Positions 1-7,667 of a stretch of 64,000 nucleotides of DNA are shown piece by piece. Each line of letters begins with the position of its first letter. Positions within the stretch are counted from its first letter, which is position 1. This stretch comes from an uncultured Candidatus Entotheonella sp. (GTDB lineage: Bacteria; Tectomicrobia; Entotheonellia; Entotheonellales; Entotheonellaceae): the NCBI GenBank assembly GCA_951828535.1, contig OX639990.1:1661300-1725299 (forward strand). Direction: 5' to 3'. The notes under the pieces were generated by a model. The model did not search any database. It was not told the origin of the DNA and saw only the letters and a list, made by a program, of their open reading frames with translations. Both the position numbers and the translations under genes were made by a program.

Positions 1-408
1 TTCCGGCAACGCCGAAACGGGATTACCGCCGGCGTCTGCCGGCACAAATTGGCGCACCAACTGCGGCAGTCGTTTGGCAAACGCCGACTTGGCCACAACT
101 TGGCTCGCGCCGGCCTGAAGCGCCTGCTTCTGCACCTCGACAGCAACGTGAGAGCCAAAGGCCAGGATGGGCACCGAACGTCCGTGTTCCTCGGCCCGCA
201 GGTCCCGAATGAGGGCAGTCGCGTCGCCACCGCGCAGCGTCAAATCGACGATCACCAAGGCCGGCACGCCGCCCCCCTGCAAGCGGGCCTGCAGGCGCCC
301 GCCGTTGGGAACAATTTCGGCGGCAAGCCCCAGATGCTGCAGAGCGGTGCGCACTTTGGCCTGGAAGAAGAGATCGTCGATAACGGCGACAACGGCTGGC
401 TGCTGCAT
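1..408 (-). CDS. Receiver-domain (CheY-like) protein, 3' end outside window
   Basis: The gene runs off the left edge; 136 codons are visible and no stop is seen. Residues about 4-122 follow the response-regulator receiver layout: acidic pair Asp11-Asp12 (VIDD), candidate phospho-acceptor Asp55 in VIVDLTL, and the conserved Lys107 in VVAKSAF. ATG at 408 is preceded by AAAGGA nine bases upstream, and no alternative start is better. No output domain appears before the edge, so it could be a stand-alone signalling receiver or the start of a longer regulator. It starts 26 bases after the stop of the HpcH/HpaI aldolase gene, so co-transcription is likely. No cognate histidine kinase lies in the window. 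Confidence 0.75.
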   Translation of the reverse strand, partial: MQQPAVVAVIDDLFFQAKVRTALQHLGLAAEIVPNGGRLQARLQGGGVPALVIVDLTLRGGDATALIRDLRAEEHGRSVPILAFGSHVAVEVQKQALQAGASQVVAKSAFAKRLPQLVRQFVPADAGGNPVSALPE

Positions 409-434
409 GACAGTGGGTCCTTTCAGATGTCGCG

Positions 435-1166
435 TTAACCGTCCCCGTTCTTCCTGTCCGCCAGAAAGCGACGTGCACCCTCGGCGAGCAAGCCGCTCAC
501 CCACGCGGAAGACATAACGTCGTCCGTCATGCGCTTCCCGGCGCCGCGAATGCGCGCCGTCAACTCGGCCATGACTTTGCGCACCTGCGGATGGTCGGGT
601 TCCCCCGGATAACCCAGGCTCTGCGCGAAATCGTTGGGTCCGATGCCGAAATAGTCGATCCCGTCCACCGCCAGAATCTCGTCTAGGTTGTCCACCACGC
701 TGGCGTCCTCCAGCAGGGCACCGACCAGCATGTTGGCATTGGCAATCCGGTAATACGCCGCCTTGTCGTCGATGCCCTGGTTGTAATCGGTACCGCGGTT
801 GCCGCCGAACGAGCGCTCGCCGAGCGGGCCGAAATAGCAGGACCGCACCAGTTCCTCGGCGTCCGCCGCGGTGGCGATATGGGGACCAAGAACGCCCTGT
901 ATGCCGCGGTCGAGAAAACGCAGGATGGTGGAAGCCTTGATGTCCGGCACGCGCGCGATGGGCGTCACCCCCACCGCCTCGGCGGCGCGGCATAGGTGCT
1001 CCAATTGCTCCAGCCCGAACGGCCCGTGCTCGCCGTCGAGCCATACGAAGTCGAAGGGCTGCTTGCCGAGGATGTCCACCACCCACGGGGCCGGAAAGGC
1101 CAGGTTGTAGCCGTAGGCCATGCGCCCTTCTCTCATGGCCGCCTTCACGCGATTTGTCTGCGGCAT
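435..1166 (-). CDS. HpcH/HpaI aldolase family protein
   Basis: A 243-residue class II aldolase of the HpcH/HpaI (2,4-dihydroxyhept-2-ene-1,7-dioate aldolase / citrate lyase beta) family, which cleaves or forms C-C bonds between pyruvate-like and aldehyde substrates with a divalent metal. Visible family marks are LDGEHGPF near the N-terminus (catalytic His region), a glutamate in LLEDASVVDNLDEI and an aspartate in GIGPNDFAQSLG (metal ligands). Length is normal. The start at 1166 is chosen because AAAGGAGG sits just upstream; the open frame extends further to 1301 only across a repeat-rich intergenic stretch. The substrate cannot be told from sequence. The receiver-domain gene follows on the same strand. 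Confidence 0.85.
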   Translation of the reverse strand: MPQTNRVKAAMREGRMAYGYNLAFPAPWVVDILGKQPFDFVWLDGEHGPFGLEQLEHLCRAAEAVGVTPIARVPDIKASTILRFLDRGIQGVLGPHIATAADAEELVRSCYFGPLGERSFGGNRGTDYNQGIDDKAAYYRIANANMLVGALLEDASVVDNLDEILAVDGIDYFGIGPNDFAQSLGYPGEPDHPQVRKVMAELTARIRGAGKRMTDDVMSSAWVSGLLAEGARRFLADRKNGDG

Positions 1167-1208
1167 GCCTGCCTCCTTTGCGTGTAAATCTCCCTTTATC
1201 TCTACCGG

Positions 1209-1299
1209 CGCAGCCCCCTCCCTAGCCCTTCCCTTCGCGGCGGGAGGGACTTTTCTGCTCCCTCTCCCCTGGCGGCAGAGGGTTGGGGTGAGGGGGACC
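1209..1299. repeat. GC-rich palindromic intergenic repeat (REP-like)
   Basis: Two nested inverted repeats lie here, each a C-run arm, a short loop and a G-run arm (for example CCCTCTCCCC opposite GGCAGAGGG), closed by an outer pair of CCCCCTC and GAGGGGG. The same style of unit recurs at 16.7, 48.83, 56.77 and 58.24 kb. The rest of the gap 1167-1436, between the divergent aldolase and MFS genes, must hold both promoters but no clear -35/-10 pair is seen. Confidence 0.6.
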
Positions 1300-1436
1300 A
1301 CGCCAATAAAACATTACCGCCCATTTTGCATCGCTGCCTGCTGCGGTGTAACCTGCCGGGGTTCCCCGAAGCGGGCTATTCCTTATAGCACTTCTCCAGC
1401 ACATCGTCTCACCACGCCAAAAGGATCAGGAGCCAA

Positions 1437-3032: not shown

Positions 3033-3842
3033 TCACCACATGACCCGGCCGCCGTCGATGTTGATGGACTGCCCGGTGATGTATTCGGCAATCGGCGTGC
3101 ACAGGTAGGCGATCAGTCCGGCCACCTCTTCGTCGCTGGCGGCGCGCTGCATGGGCACGGTATCAACGTTGCGCTGCCACGTTTCGCCGCGTCCCAGAAC
3201 GTCCATGCGGGCCGTGTCGATGATTCCCGGGCAAACGGCGTTGACGCTGATGCGGTGCGGCGCCAGTTCCTGCGCCAGCGACTGCGTGAACCCCTGCAAC
3301 GCGAAATTGGACGCGCAATACGCCGACGTGTTGGCCGAGCCGCGCTTGCCCGCCACCGACGAAATGTTGATGATGCGGCCGCCCTCATTCTGCTCCAGCA
3401 GCACCGGGATGATGGCCTTGCACAACAGGAACGACCCGACCACCTTGACCTCCAAAACGCGCCGGAACAACTCCTCGCTGAGTTCCACCACCGGCACCCG
3501 GTCTTCACCCCGCGCCACCGCGGCGTTATTGATCACAATGTCTACCCGGCCCCATGCCTCGCGCGTTTGACGCACAAAGCCTCGCACGTCATCGGAATTG
3601 CTGATGTCACCGATCAGCGCCAGGCCGCGGCCACCGGCTGCGGCGATTTGTTCCACCGTGCTGTGCACGTCGCGCCAATTCACCGCCTTCTCGTCATCGG
3701 GAAAGGTGTCGGGATGCCGTCCGGTGCCGGTCACGGCCACGTCGGCGCCCATTTCCGCCAGCGCCACGGCCGTCGCCCGACCGATACCGCGCAGGCGCCC
3801 GGCGCCGGTGACGATGGCCACTTTGCCATCCAGAACTCCCAC
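3033..3842 (-). CDS. SDR-family oxidoreductase with Asn in place of the catalytic Lys
   Basis: A 269-residue short-chain dehydrogenase/reductase. The Rossmann nucleotide-binding motif is TGAGRLRGIG (residues 12-21, two residues longer than the usual TGxxxGIG), with INNAAVA (NNAG-type) and the catalytic Ser in INISSVAGK. The active-site tetrad motif reads YCASN (Tyr175...Asn179): the codon is AAT where the family has Lys (YxxxK). That lysine normally lowers the Tyr pKa and binds the nicotinamide ribose, so activity may be lost or altered; a sequencing error is possible but would need a specific base change. The start is GTG at 3842 with AAGGAG upstream. It is convergent with the MFS gene with no spacer. 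Confidence 0.85.
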   Translation of the reverse strand: MGVLDGKVAIVTGAGRLRGIGRATAVALAEMGADVAVTGTGRHPDTFPDDEKAVNWRDVHSTVEQIAAAGGRGLALIGDISNSDDVRGFVRQTREAWGRVDIVINNAAVARGEDRVPVVELSEELFRRVLEVKVVGSFLLCKAIIPVLLEQNEGGRIINISSVAGKRGSANTSAYCASNFALQGFTQSLAQELAPHRISVNAVCPGIIDTARMDVLGRGETWQRNVDTVPMQRAASDEEVAGLIAYLCTPIAEYITGQSINIDGGRVMW

Positions 3843-3928: not shown

Positions 3929-5743
3929 TTAGCAATGGCTGTCGAGAATGTCACGCACCGCGAACAAGCCCAGAATGTTGGTGTGGAACTGCGGCGCCCA
4001 GCCCGAGCCTGAGACGGCCAGGACGGTGTCATCCTCGGAGAGCAGGCGCTCCCGCACGGCCTGGGTGATGGCGGCATGAGCGACGGTCGGGTCGGGCAGC
4101 TCGTCATCGAGCCGCATCGGCGTGATGCCACGCGATAGCAAGAACTGGCGCGACGCGCGGCGTGAACTGGTGGCGGCGATGATCGGCACGCCGGGACGGT
4201 ATCGGGCCAACATGCGGGCGGTGTGGCCGGAGCGGGTGACGGCCAGGATGGCGGTGATGTGGCCGCTGTGCCGGTTGAAGCGCTCAATCATCGTCGAAAT
4301 ACCGTGGCTGATGATCGCCGGCGTCTGATCCGGCAGCACGCTCTCGATAGCGGGGTTGAATTGCGGCAGGGTGCGTTCGGCGCTGCGCACGATGCGCGCC
4401 ATCATCCCAACGGCCTCGATGGGGTAGTCGCCGGCGGCGCTTTCGGCTGACAGCATGACGGCGTCGGCACCGTCCAGAATAGCATTGAACACGTCACTCA
4501 CTTCGGCCCGCGTCGGCAGCGGATAAGCGCACATGCTTTCCAGCATCTGGGTGGCACAGATCACCGGTTTACCCTGCTGATTACAGGCACGAATCATGGC
4601 TTTCTGGTGCCGCGGCACGTCCTCAGCGGGAATGTTCACCGCCAGATCACCGCGCGCCACCATGATGCCGTCCGACACCTCCAGAATACGATTGAAATTC
4701 TCCAAGGCAATCCCGCGCTCGATCTTGCTGATGAGCGGCATTTCCGCCCCGGCCTGCTGCACCGCGGCGCGCACCTGACGCACGTCCTCGGCCTCGGCCA
4801 CGAAGGAGACGGCCAGGAAGTCCACGTCCAATTCGACGGCCAGCTCGATGTCCTGTCGGTCCTTGGCGGTCGGCACCTGCATGCCCAGGATGGCGCGCGG
4901 CGCGTGGATGCCCTTGCGGCTGCTCAGCCGCCCGCCCGTCAGCACCTGGCACACGATGTCGGTGTCGTCGCGTACTTCCGTGACGCGCAATTCGATCAGG
5001 CCGTCATCGAGGTACAGGGTGTCGCCGGCGGCAACGTCGCGCGGCAGGTCCGGGTAGTCGAGCGACACGATGTTCTCCGAACCCGCCACCGGCCGTGACG
5101 TGAGCGTGAACGTCGCGCCCCGCTGCAGGGGCACGACGGTATCGTTCTGCAGGTGGCCGATACGCAGTTTAGGGCCTTGCAGGTCGGCCATGATGGCGAC
5201 GTGGTCGGCGAGGCGGCGAATGCGCTCGCACACCACGCGGTGCCAGTCCCAATCGCCGTGCGAGAAGTTGAGCCGGGCAACGTCCATGCCGGCGTCAATG
5301 AGCCGCGACAAGTTTTCCTGGGAATCGCTGGCCGGTCCGATGGTGGAAACGATCTTCGCTTGCCGCTGGGCCTGCCGGCGCACCAAGCGCCGTACCAGGG
5401 AGCGAACCTGCGGGGCGGCCGAATCGCCGCTGGCAAGATGATCGGCGATACCGCCTCCCAGCGTTTGCAACACGGTTTCCGCCGCCGGGTCGGTCGCCAC
5501 CAAGATCACCACCGTACTGGGGGTGCGCTGCTTCACCCGCGCGCACAGCGTCAGCCCTTCTTGCACCCGTTCCAGCGTCGTCCCCAAGGCGACGATGAGG
5601 ATGTCACAAGCCCCCTGTCGCAACTCCTGCCGAGCCTCGGTGAGGCTTGCGGCTCGCCGGATGTCGTCCACCTCGTCAGCCAGCATCGTGCACAGCGCCG
5701 AGGCAGCCCGCTCGTCCGCATCGACAATCAACACTTTGGTCAT
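3929..5743 (-). CDS. Pyruvate kinase with N-terminal pseudo-receiver domain
   Basis: A 604-residue fusion. Residues 1-123 look like a response-regulator receiver: [11 protein letters not shown] start, Asp8/Asp10-Glu11 acidic cluster, Thr84, beta-alpha spacing. The phospho-acceptor position carries Ala52 (DILIVALG) and the conserved Lys is missing (HLASGD), so it should not take phosphate. Residues 129-604 are a complete pyruvate kinase: [15 protein letters not shown] (Arg157), ADLQGPK (Asp187, Lys192), SKIERG (Lys340, Glu342), ARGDL (Asp366), ATQMLESM (Thr398), [10 protein letters not shown] and a C-terminal regulatory domain. It makes pyruvate and ATP from PEP and ADP in glycolysis. ATG 5743 has GGAGG eight bases upstream; the frame is open to 5854 but that part reads as leader. 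Divergent from the GH15 gene. Confidence 0.88.
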
Positions 5744-5764
5744 CGTGTTTGCCTCCGGCTTCTG

Positions 5765-5852: not shown

Positions 5853-7667
5853 ATGCCGTACCAGCCGATCGAGAATTATGGCGTGATCGGAGACCTTCAT
5901 ACCGTGGCGCTCGTCGGGATGAATGGGTCAATCGATTTCATGTCGTTCCCGCACTTTGACTCGCCGACGGTGTTTGCGGCCTTGCTGGACGAAAAGAAAG
6001 GCGGGCGGTTCCAGATAGCCCCGATATTTGCCGCCTCAAGCCACAAGCAACTCTACCTGCCCGACACGAATGTTCTGTTAACCCGTTTTCTGTCCGACGA
6101 AGGGGTGGCTGAAGTGTCGGATTTCATGCCCCTGGATGAAGATGGCCACGGGCACGCCCACAACCTGGTGCGCCGGGTCAAGACCGTGCGCGGCGAGATC
6201 ACCTTCCGCATGATTTGCGAGCCCCGCTTCGACTACGGGCGCGCGACCCACAAGGTCACGGAAACGTTTGACGGGGTGCTGTTCGTTTCGGATGGGCCGG
6301 ACAAAACCGCCCTGCGTCTGTGCACGGAGATTCCGGTGCGCATCGAGAACGGCGCCGCCATTGCCGAATTCACCCTGCGGAGCAACGAGTCGGCGTCGTT
6401 CGTTCTAGAGCAGGCGATTCCCGGTGAGCCCTCCCTGTCGTCGCCGAGTTACGTGTCGCGTTCGTTCAAGGAGACGGTTAATTTCTGGCACCGGTGGGTG
6501 GCGCGCTCGACCTATCGCGGGCGCTGGCGGGAGGTGGTGAATCGCTCTGCCCTGACGTTGAAGCTCCTGACTTCCCGCATGCACGGCTCGGTGGTGGCGG
6601 CCCCGACTTTTGGCCTGCCCGAGGAGGTGGGCGGCGAACGCAACTGGGATTATCGCTATACCTGGATCCGCGATGCTTCCTTCACTTTGTATGGTCTCAT
6701 ACGCCTGGGTTACACGCAAGAAGCGGGGGACTTCATGAAGTGGATCGAGGCGCGTTGCGGGGAGATGAACGACGACGGCTCACTTCAGATCATGTACGGC
6801 ATCGATGGCCGCCATCACCTGACGGAGGAGCACCTGCCGCACCTGGAGGGATACCTCAAATCATCGCCGGTACGCATCGGCAACGGCGCCTACGATCAAC
6901 TGCAACTCGACATCTACGGCGAACTGATGGATTCGGTGTATCTCTATGACAAATACGGCGACCCCATTTCGTACGACCTGTGGGAGAACCTGACACGCCT
7001 GATCGAATGGGTCTGTGCCAACTGGCAGCGTAAGGATGAGGGGATCTGGGAAGTGCGCGGCGGGCAGCATGCCTTCCTGTACTCACGCGTCATGTGTTGG
7101 GTAGCCATTGATCGCGCCTTCCGGCTGGCCCATAAGCGGTCGTTGCCGGCACCGTTGGAACGCTGGCACAAGGTGCGGAACGACATTTACAAGGAGGTGT
7201 TCACCAAGTTCTGGCACGAGCCTCGGCGGGCCTTTGTGCAACACGCGGACACGACGGCCATGGACGCCTCGGCGCTGATCATGCCATTGGTGAAGTTCAT
7301 CGGCCCCAAGGACCCGCGCTGGATTTCTACCCTGAAGGCCATTCACGAAGATTTGGTGGACGATTCACTGGTGTACCGATACCGCACGGAAGAGGTATCC
7401 GACGGGCTGGCGGGCGGCGAGGGAACGTTCTGTATTTGTACCTTCTGGTTCGTGGAATGCGTGGCGCGCAGCGGCGATCTGCAAGGGGCGCGGTTTCTGT
7501 TCGAAAAGGCGCTGGGCTACGCCAACCACCTCGGCCTGTTCGCCGAGGAGCTTGGCCCGCACGGCGAGCATTTGGGGAACTTTCCGCAAGCGTTCACACA
7601 CTTGGCGCTGATCAGCGCCGCCTACGACCTGGACCGGCGTTTGTCCACCGCCGGGCAGCGGGATTAG
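5853..7667 (+). CDS. Glycoside hydrolase family 15 protein (glucoamylase/trehalase type)
   Basis: A 604-residue GH15 enzyme. The N-terminal beta-sandwich domain begins [17 protein letters not shown], typical of bacterial GH15 trehalase/glucodextranase-like proteins. The (alpha/alpha)6 domain shows [13 protein letters not shown] (about residues 265-278), GIWEVRGG (about 395-402, catalytic acid Glu) and [11 protein letters not shown] (about 523-533, catalytic base Glu). It would release glucose from alpha-glucosides such as trehalose or maltodextrins. No signal peptide is visible, so it is probably cytosolic. ATG 5853 has AAGGAGAG upstream; the frame is open from 5523 but that overlaps the pyruvate kinase gene. 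The divergent neighbour is pyruvate kinase, which fits a sugar-use context. Confidence 0.88.

Follow-up and report, generated by a model that had tools for sequence, protein, structure and literature searches.

A pyruvate kinase carrying an N-terminal pseudo-receiver domain in Candidatus Entotheonella

Pyruvate kinases (PKs) are tetramers, and the regulatory additions of the known enzymes are C-terminal or are effector sites in the C domain. Some receiver domains have lost the phosphorylated aspartate, and in 9% of these aspartate-less receivers Ala replaces the phospho-Asp, as in FrzS, a known pseudo-receiver, and in the protein described here (PMC4395418). Aspartate-less receivers are over-represented on rare or unusual enzymatic effectors, of which pyruvate phosphate dikinase (PPDK) is one; "pyruvate" appears once in the main text of that survey, for PPDK and not for PK (PMC4395418). 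Known pseudo-receivers act via ligand binding, a change of multimer, or protein contact, with FrzS acting through protein contact and polar positioning, and many of the solved structures are dimers formed without phosphorylation (PMC12632262). A 2025 review calls the regulation of bacterial pseudo-receivers "a mystery" (PMC12632262).

The gene described here belongs to an uncultured Candidatus Entotheonella, a sponge-symbiont-type bacterium in whose genome no other PK gene was found. It lies in the window, i.e., the whole stretch of 64,000 nucleotides that was analyzed, together with the following features:

1..408 (about), minus strand: stand-alone receiver gene, 3.5 kb downstream of the fusion gene and reaching the window edge
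3033..3842, minus strand: short-chain dehydrogenase (SDR) gene, following the fusion gene after 86 nt, in the same order in the sister genome
3929..5743, minus strand: receiver-PK fusion gene, 604 amino acids, ATG start
3932..5365, minus strand: PK A, B, and C domains (residues 127 to 604), with the catalytic motifs RLNFSHG, KIE, ARGD, and ATQM
5369..5737, minus strand: pseudo-receiver domain (residues 3 to 125), from Pfam, AlphaFold2, Foldseek/VIA-align, and dN/dS
5752..5756, minus strand: Shine-Dalgarno-like GGAGG, 8 nt before the fusion ATG, also in the sister genome
5852..7667, plus strand (start approximate): GH15 glucoamylase/trehalase-like gene, divergent from the fusion gene and sharing an intergenic region with it

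The place and strand that the sequence-only reading gave to the open reading frame were confirmed, and the frame encodes one 604-residue protein. The start at 5743 is backed by the GGAGG in both genomes; a longer in-frame start at 5854 is present in the window but absent from the sister genome. A frame or start artefact was ruled out, as the frame and the ribosome-binding site are common to the two assemblies. Translation from near residue 125, which would have left the PK part alone, is not favored either: no Met occurs there, and no obvious Shine-Dalgarno sequence precedes the TTG/GTG codons at 117-118, so that there appears to be no plausible internal start ahead of the PK part.

The N-terminal part is recognized by the Pfam profile Response_reg (PF00072) at residues 4 to 103 with 33.8 bits (35.9 bits for the domain alone), above the gathering cut-off of 30.2 bits. 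In the AlphaFold2 model of the full-length fusion, calculated from 10 sequences (pTM 0.76), residues 3 to 125 form five beta-alpha units, and the helix of residues 109 to 125 runs into the first barrel strand at residue 130. The receiver modeled alone from 2 sequences takes the same fold (mean pLDDT 79.2, pTM 0.77). The best 50 PDB matches in Foldseek are nearly all receivers (best E-value, 4.6e-6), and VIA-align comparison with solved receivers gave Z-scores of up to 16.4, the FrzS receiver scoring 15.0. The predicted fold is thus a complete (beta-alpha)5 fold, as the sequence-only reading had supposed, and its profile assignment holds as well.

Key residues of the phosphorylation site are lost. 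The phospho-acceptor position is Ala52 in both genomes; in the acidic pair, Asp8 is kept and the second residue is Ala9 (Ser9 in the sister genome); Thr84 is kept, and the conserved Lys is missing, with no Lys before the last helix. Ala52, Thr84, and the lost Lys are all as first described, and the lost second acid is an addition to that description. With the phospho-acceptor Asp, the second acid, and the Lys gone, the domain does not belong to the phosphorylatable canonical receivers and is therefore an aspartate-less or pseudo-receiver, according to the definitions in PMC4395418 and PMC12632262. From family knowledge we infer that these losses would exclude ordinary phosphotransfer.

The PK part matches the Pfam profiles PK (PF00224; residues 127 to 445, 384.8 bits) and PK_C (PF02887; residues 495 to 591, 78.7 bits), and the invariant residues Arg157, Asn159, Ser161, Asp187, Lys340, Glu342, Asp366, and Thr398 are all present. 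Profiles and catalytic motifs both place it among the PKs, and its closest solved relatives are ordinary enzymes of this family. The earlier description of an intact PK with all its catalytic residues agrees with these scores and residues, and the PK part is complete and presumably active. Around the catalytic Asp (4634-4657, minus strand), both fusion proteins have ARGDLAVN instead of the usual ARGDLGVE; this sequence is not claimed as a special feature of the fusion PK, because DLA is seen in a few other PKs.

The same fusion was found independently in a second uncultured Candidatus Entotheonella sp. (OY282375.1), where it is 93% identical over 604 residues, is likewise the only PK gene found, and is flanked by the same SDR gene downstream and the same divergent GH15 gene. 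Between the two fusions, the receiver part is under purifying selection with a dN/dS of approximately 0.2: pairwise values were 0.19 to 0.23 for the receiver and 0.085 for the PK part, and nonsynonymous changes in the receiver are fewer than synonymous ones (Fisher p = 4e-6). The low value is the reason why the receiver region is taken as translated. Its constraint is weaker than that on PK (0.23 versus 0.085, p = 2e-4), and the open frame and the ribosome-binding site have been retained at a synonymous divergence of approximately 0.32. Since 10 of the 18 receiver substitutions fall in residues 1 to 40 (p = 0.03), there is a hint, from two sequences only, of stronger conservation in the second half of the domain than in the first; with only two close fusion sequences, conserved surfaces are not reliably readable. 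Profile, predicted structure, homologue, and selection together bear out a pseudo-receiver fused to an intact PK, and this architecture is a new combination of two known families.

The combination is rare. Among the five genomes of the phylum that were examined, the fusion occurs in two, both of this genus. One genome of the same family (G003; L044 4612-6124) has a PK without a receiver, which a quick tree puts together with alphaproteobacterial PKs, so that members of the family may have exchanged PK types; in another (G002; L042 4734-7369), the PK, also without a receiver, is divided between two frames, either by a frameshift or by a sequencing error; and a further genome of the phylum (G004) gave no PK match. 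No second fusion was found in the fetched or listed PKs from approximately 640 other genomes; samples of 386 genomes across families, 195 genomes of a receiver-rich phylum, and 52 genomes of the phylum to which the closest PK relatives belong yielded none among the matches listed; as only listed matches were covered and a very divergent fused receiver could escape the genome search, a second fusion is described as not found rather than absent. The other long PK frames that were fetched were rejected as fusions, their N-terminal extensions looking like read-through of non-coding sequence; in most of them, a Met is present just ahead of the PK start. When six short patterns, whose reach is close relatives only, were run against 84,980 species genomes, the sister fusion alone was found, and no record in the plasmid collection covers 80% of the fusion protein. 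In the literature, we found no paper on a PK fused to a receiver, and the initial remark that the arrangement was unfamiliar thus holds for the PKs examined and for the literature, annotated domain-architecture databases being outside the scope. With no second fusion found, and with PKs lacking a receiver in two genomes of the same family, the arrangement seems to be recent and, among the genomes examined, limited to one genus.

We give an even chance to the reading that the pseudo-receiver is a phosphorylation-independent regulatory or docking module on an otherwise complete PK. The receiver, presumably not switchable by Asp phosphorylation, would either recognize a small ligand or partner protein or associate with itself; through its last helix, predicted to join the first barrel strand, it would change the activity, stability, or location of the PK tetramer, and the step from PEP to pyruvate would thereby be tuned. 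Several observations argue for this reading: pseudo-receivers act via ligands, multimers, and contacts, and aspartate-less receivers are enriched on enzymes; the receiver is constrained, and the fusion is conserved in the sister species and is the sole PK gene found in both genomes; and the receiver profile scores above its cut-off in the same frame as PK and PK_C, with a predicted fold matching FrzS. The weaker constraint on the receiver than on PK and the lack of a linked partner gene argue against it. A PPDK-type gene elsewhere in the genome offers a potential second route between PEP and pyruvate, and the fusion PK may therefore not be the sole control point. The earlier proposal of a control domain linking glycolysis to a signaling partner seems reasonable on these grounds.

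Purifying selection requires only that the domain fold, and extra N-terminal domains on PK are not necessarily regulatory; the receiver could accordingly be a structural appendage that stabilizes the PK oligomer or helps to assemble it, fixed in one state and sensing nothing, much as many pseudo-receivers are dimeric without phosphorylation (PMC12632262). Related PKs, including those of the same bacterial family, work without a receiver, which is therefore not generally needed for assembly, and we consider such a purely structural role unlikely, although it ranks first among the alternatives to a control module.

The neighborhood is relevant to a second alternative, in which the fused domain would serve as a tether, attaching PK to a histidine kinase or another receiver or anchoring it at a membrane or cytoskeletal site, with no effect on catalysis. 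The SDR gene is possibly co-transcribed with the fusion, and the divergent GH15 gene is present as first reported. The fusion and the stand-alone receiver gene are separated by the SDR gene, an oppositely oriented MFS gene, and an aldolase gene; the stand-alone receiver gene is directly downstream of this HpcH/HpaI aldolase gene (1-1301, minus strand), in an order that is the same in the sister genome. The sequence-only reading was right that a normal receiver lies nearby on the same strand, but a link to the fusion is unsupported: BLAST found no similarity between the fused receiver and this stand-alone one, which was set aside on that basis as its origin or partner. No kinase gene was seen next to the fusion, and no partner gene is linked to the fusion at the locus. 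Partners for a tether could still be supplied by the small complement of only 11 receiver domains above the Pfam cut-off and by the 5 HisKA domains of the 3.6-Mb genome, and FrzS-like pseudo-receivers do rely on protein contact and polar positioning (PMC12632262); a tether is improbable. Least probable, and ranked last, is a recent accident in which a decaying receiver is tolerated as harmless to PK, to which the restriction to one genus, the degenerate active site, and the weaker constraint would be suited, but which is at odds with a dN/dS well below 1 and with a frame and ribosome-binding site kept over the divergence given above, although selection against misfolding alone could account for part of the low dN/dS.

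The closest PK relatives of the fusion belong to a family termed f82, the PKs of which are joined by the fused PK in quick trees with SH-aLRT values of 99 to 100; its branch lies outside those of all five f82 PKs of the same type. In two f82 genera (PKs L054 and L055), a canonical receiver gene directly follows a hybrid histidine kinase gene and stands immediately upstream of the PK gene, with 16 to 36 nt between it and pyk. The tight same-strand cluster of hybrid histidine kinase, receiver, and PK (L116 4640-8527 and L117 4499-8421, in G084 and G354) may feed a two-component signal into PK or its expression. No receiver was found upstream in the three other f82 genomes with the same PK type, in one of which (G225) the contig starts approximately 300 bases before pyk, and the pair is confined to a nested subgroup of f82. 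The f82 receiver is a separate, unfused gene with no particular sequence affinity to the fused receiver; f82 receivers are absent from the nearest receivers of the fused domain in a fetched set biased toward matches of the fusion protein. Derivation of the fusion from the f82 pair is thus unsupported, and the gene pair is a parallel with no demonstrated ancestry. It is doubtful, more so than a structural role and less so than a tether, that a pseudo-receiver sensing a ligand or a partner exerts direct control over PK, a central glycolytic enzyme, within one chain and also that this PK subfamily acquired a coupled receiver on more than one occasion, by fusion in Entotheonella and beside pyk in two relatives, with glycolytic flux responding to a two-component-type signal at the level of the protein. 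If the receiver controls PK, the fusion would connect a signaling-type domain to glycolytic flux directly and post-translationally; PK being simply and quantitatively assayable, the regulation of pseudo-receivers would become directly testable.

Compared with bacterial PKs (e.g., PDB accession numbers 3t05 and 2e28), the fusion has the barrel and alpha/beta domains and the catalytic motifs in common, whereas its receiver is N-terminal and the known regulatory additions sit elsewhere. Like the aspartate-less receivers of FrzS, RitR, and KaiA/CikA, the fused domain has a receiver fold with the phospho-Asp replaced (PMC4395418, PMC12632262), and, as in them, the first acidic residue is kept and the second lost. 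The outputs of these proteins are of the DNA-binding, kinase, or cyclase type, while that of the fusion is a PK. The PPDK with an aspartate-less receiver likewise bears a degenerate receiver on an enzyme interconverting PEP and pyruvate (PMC4395418), although PPDK and PK are unrelated enzyme families.
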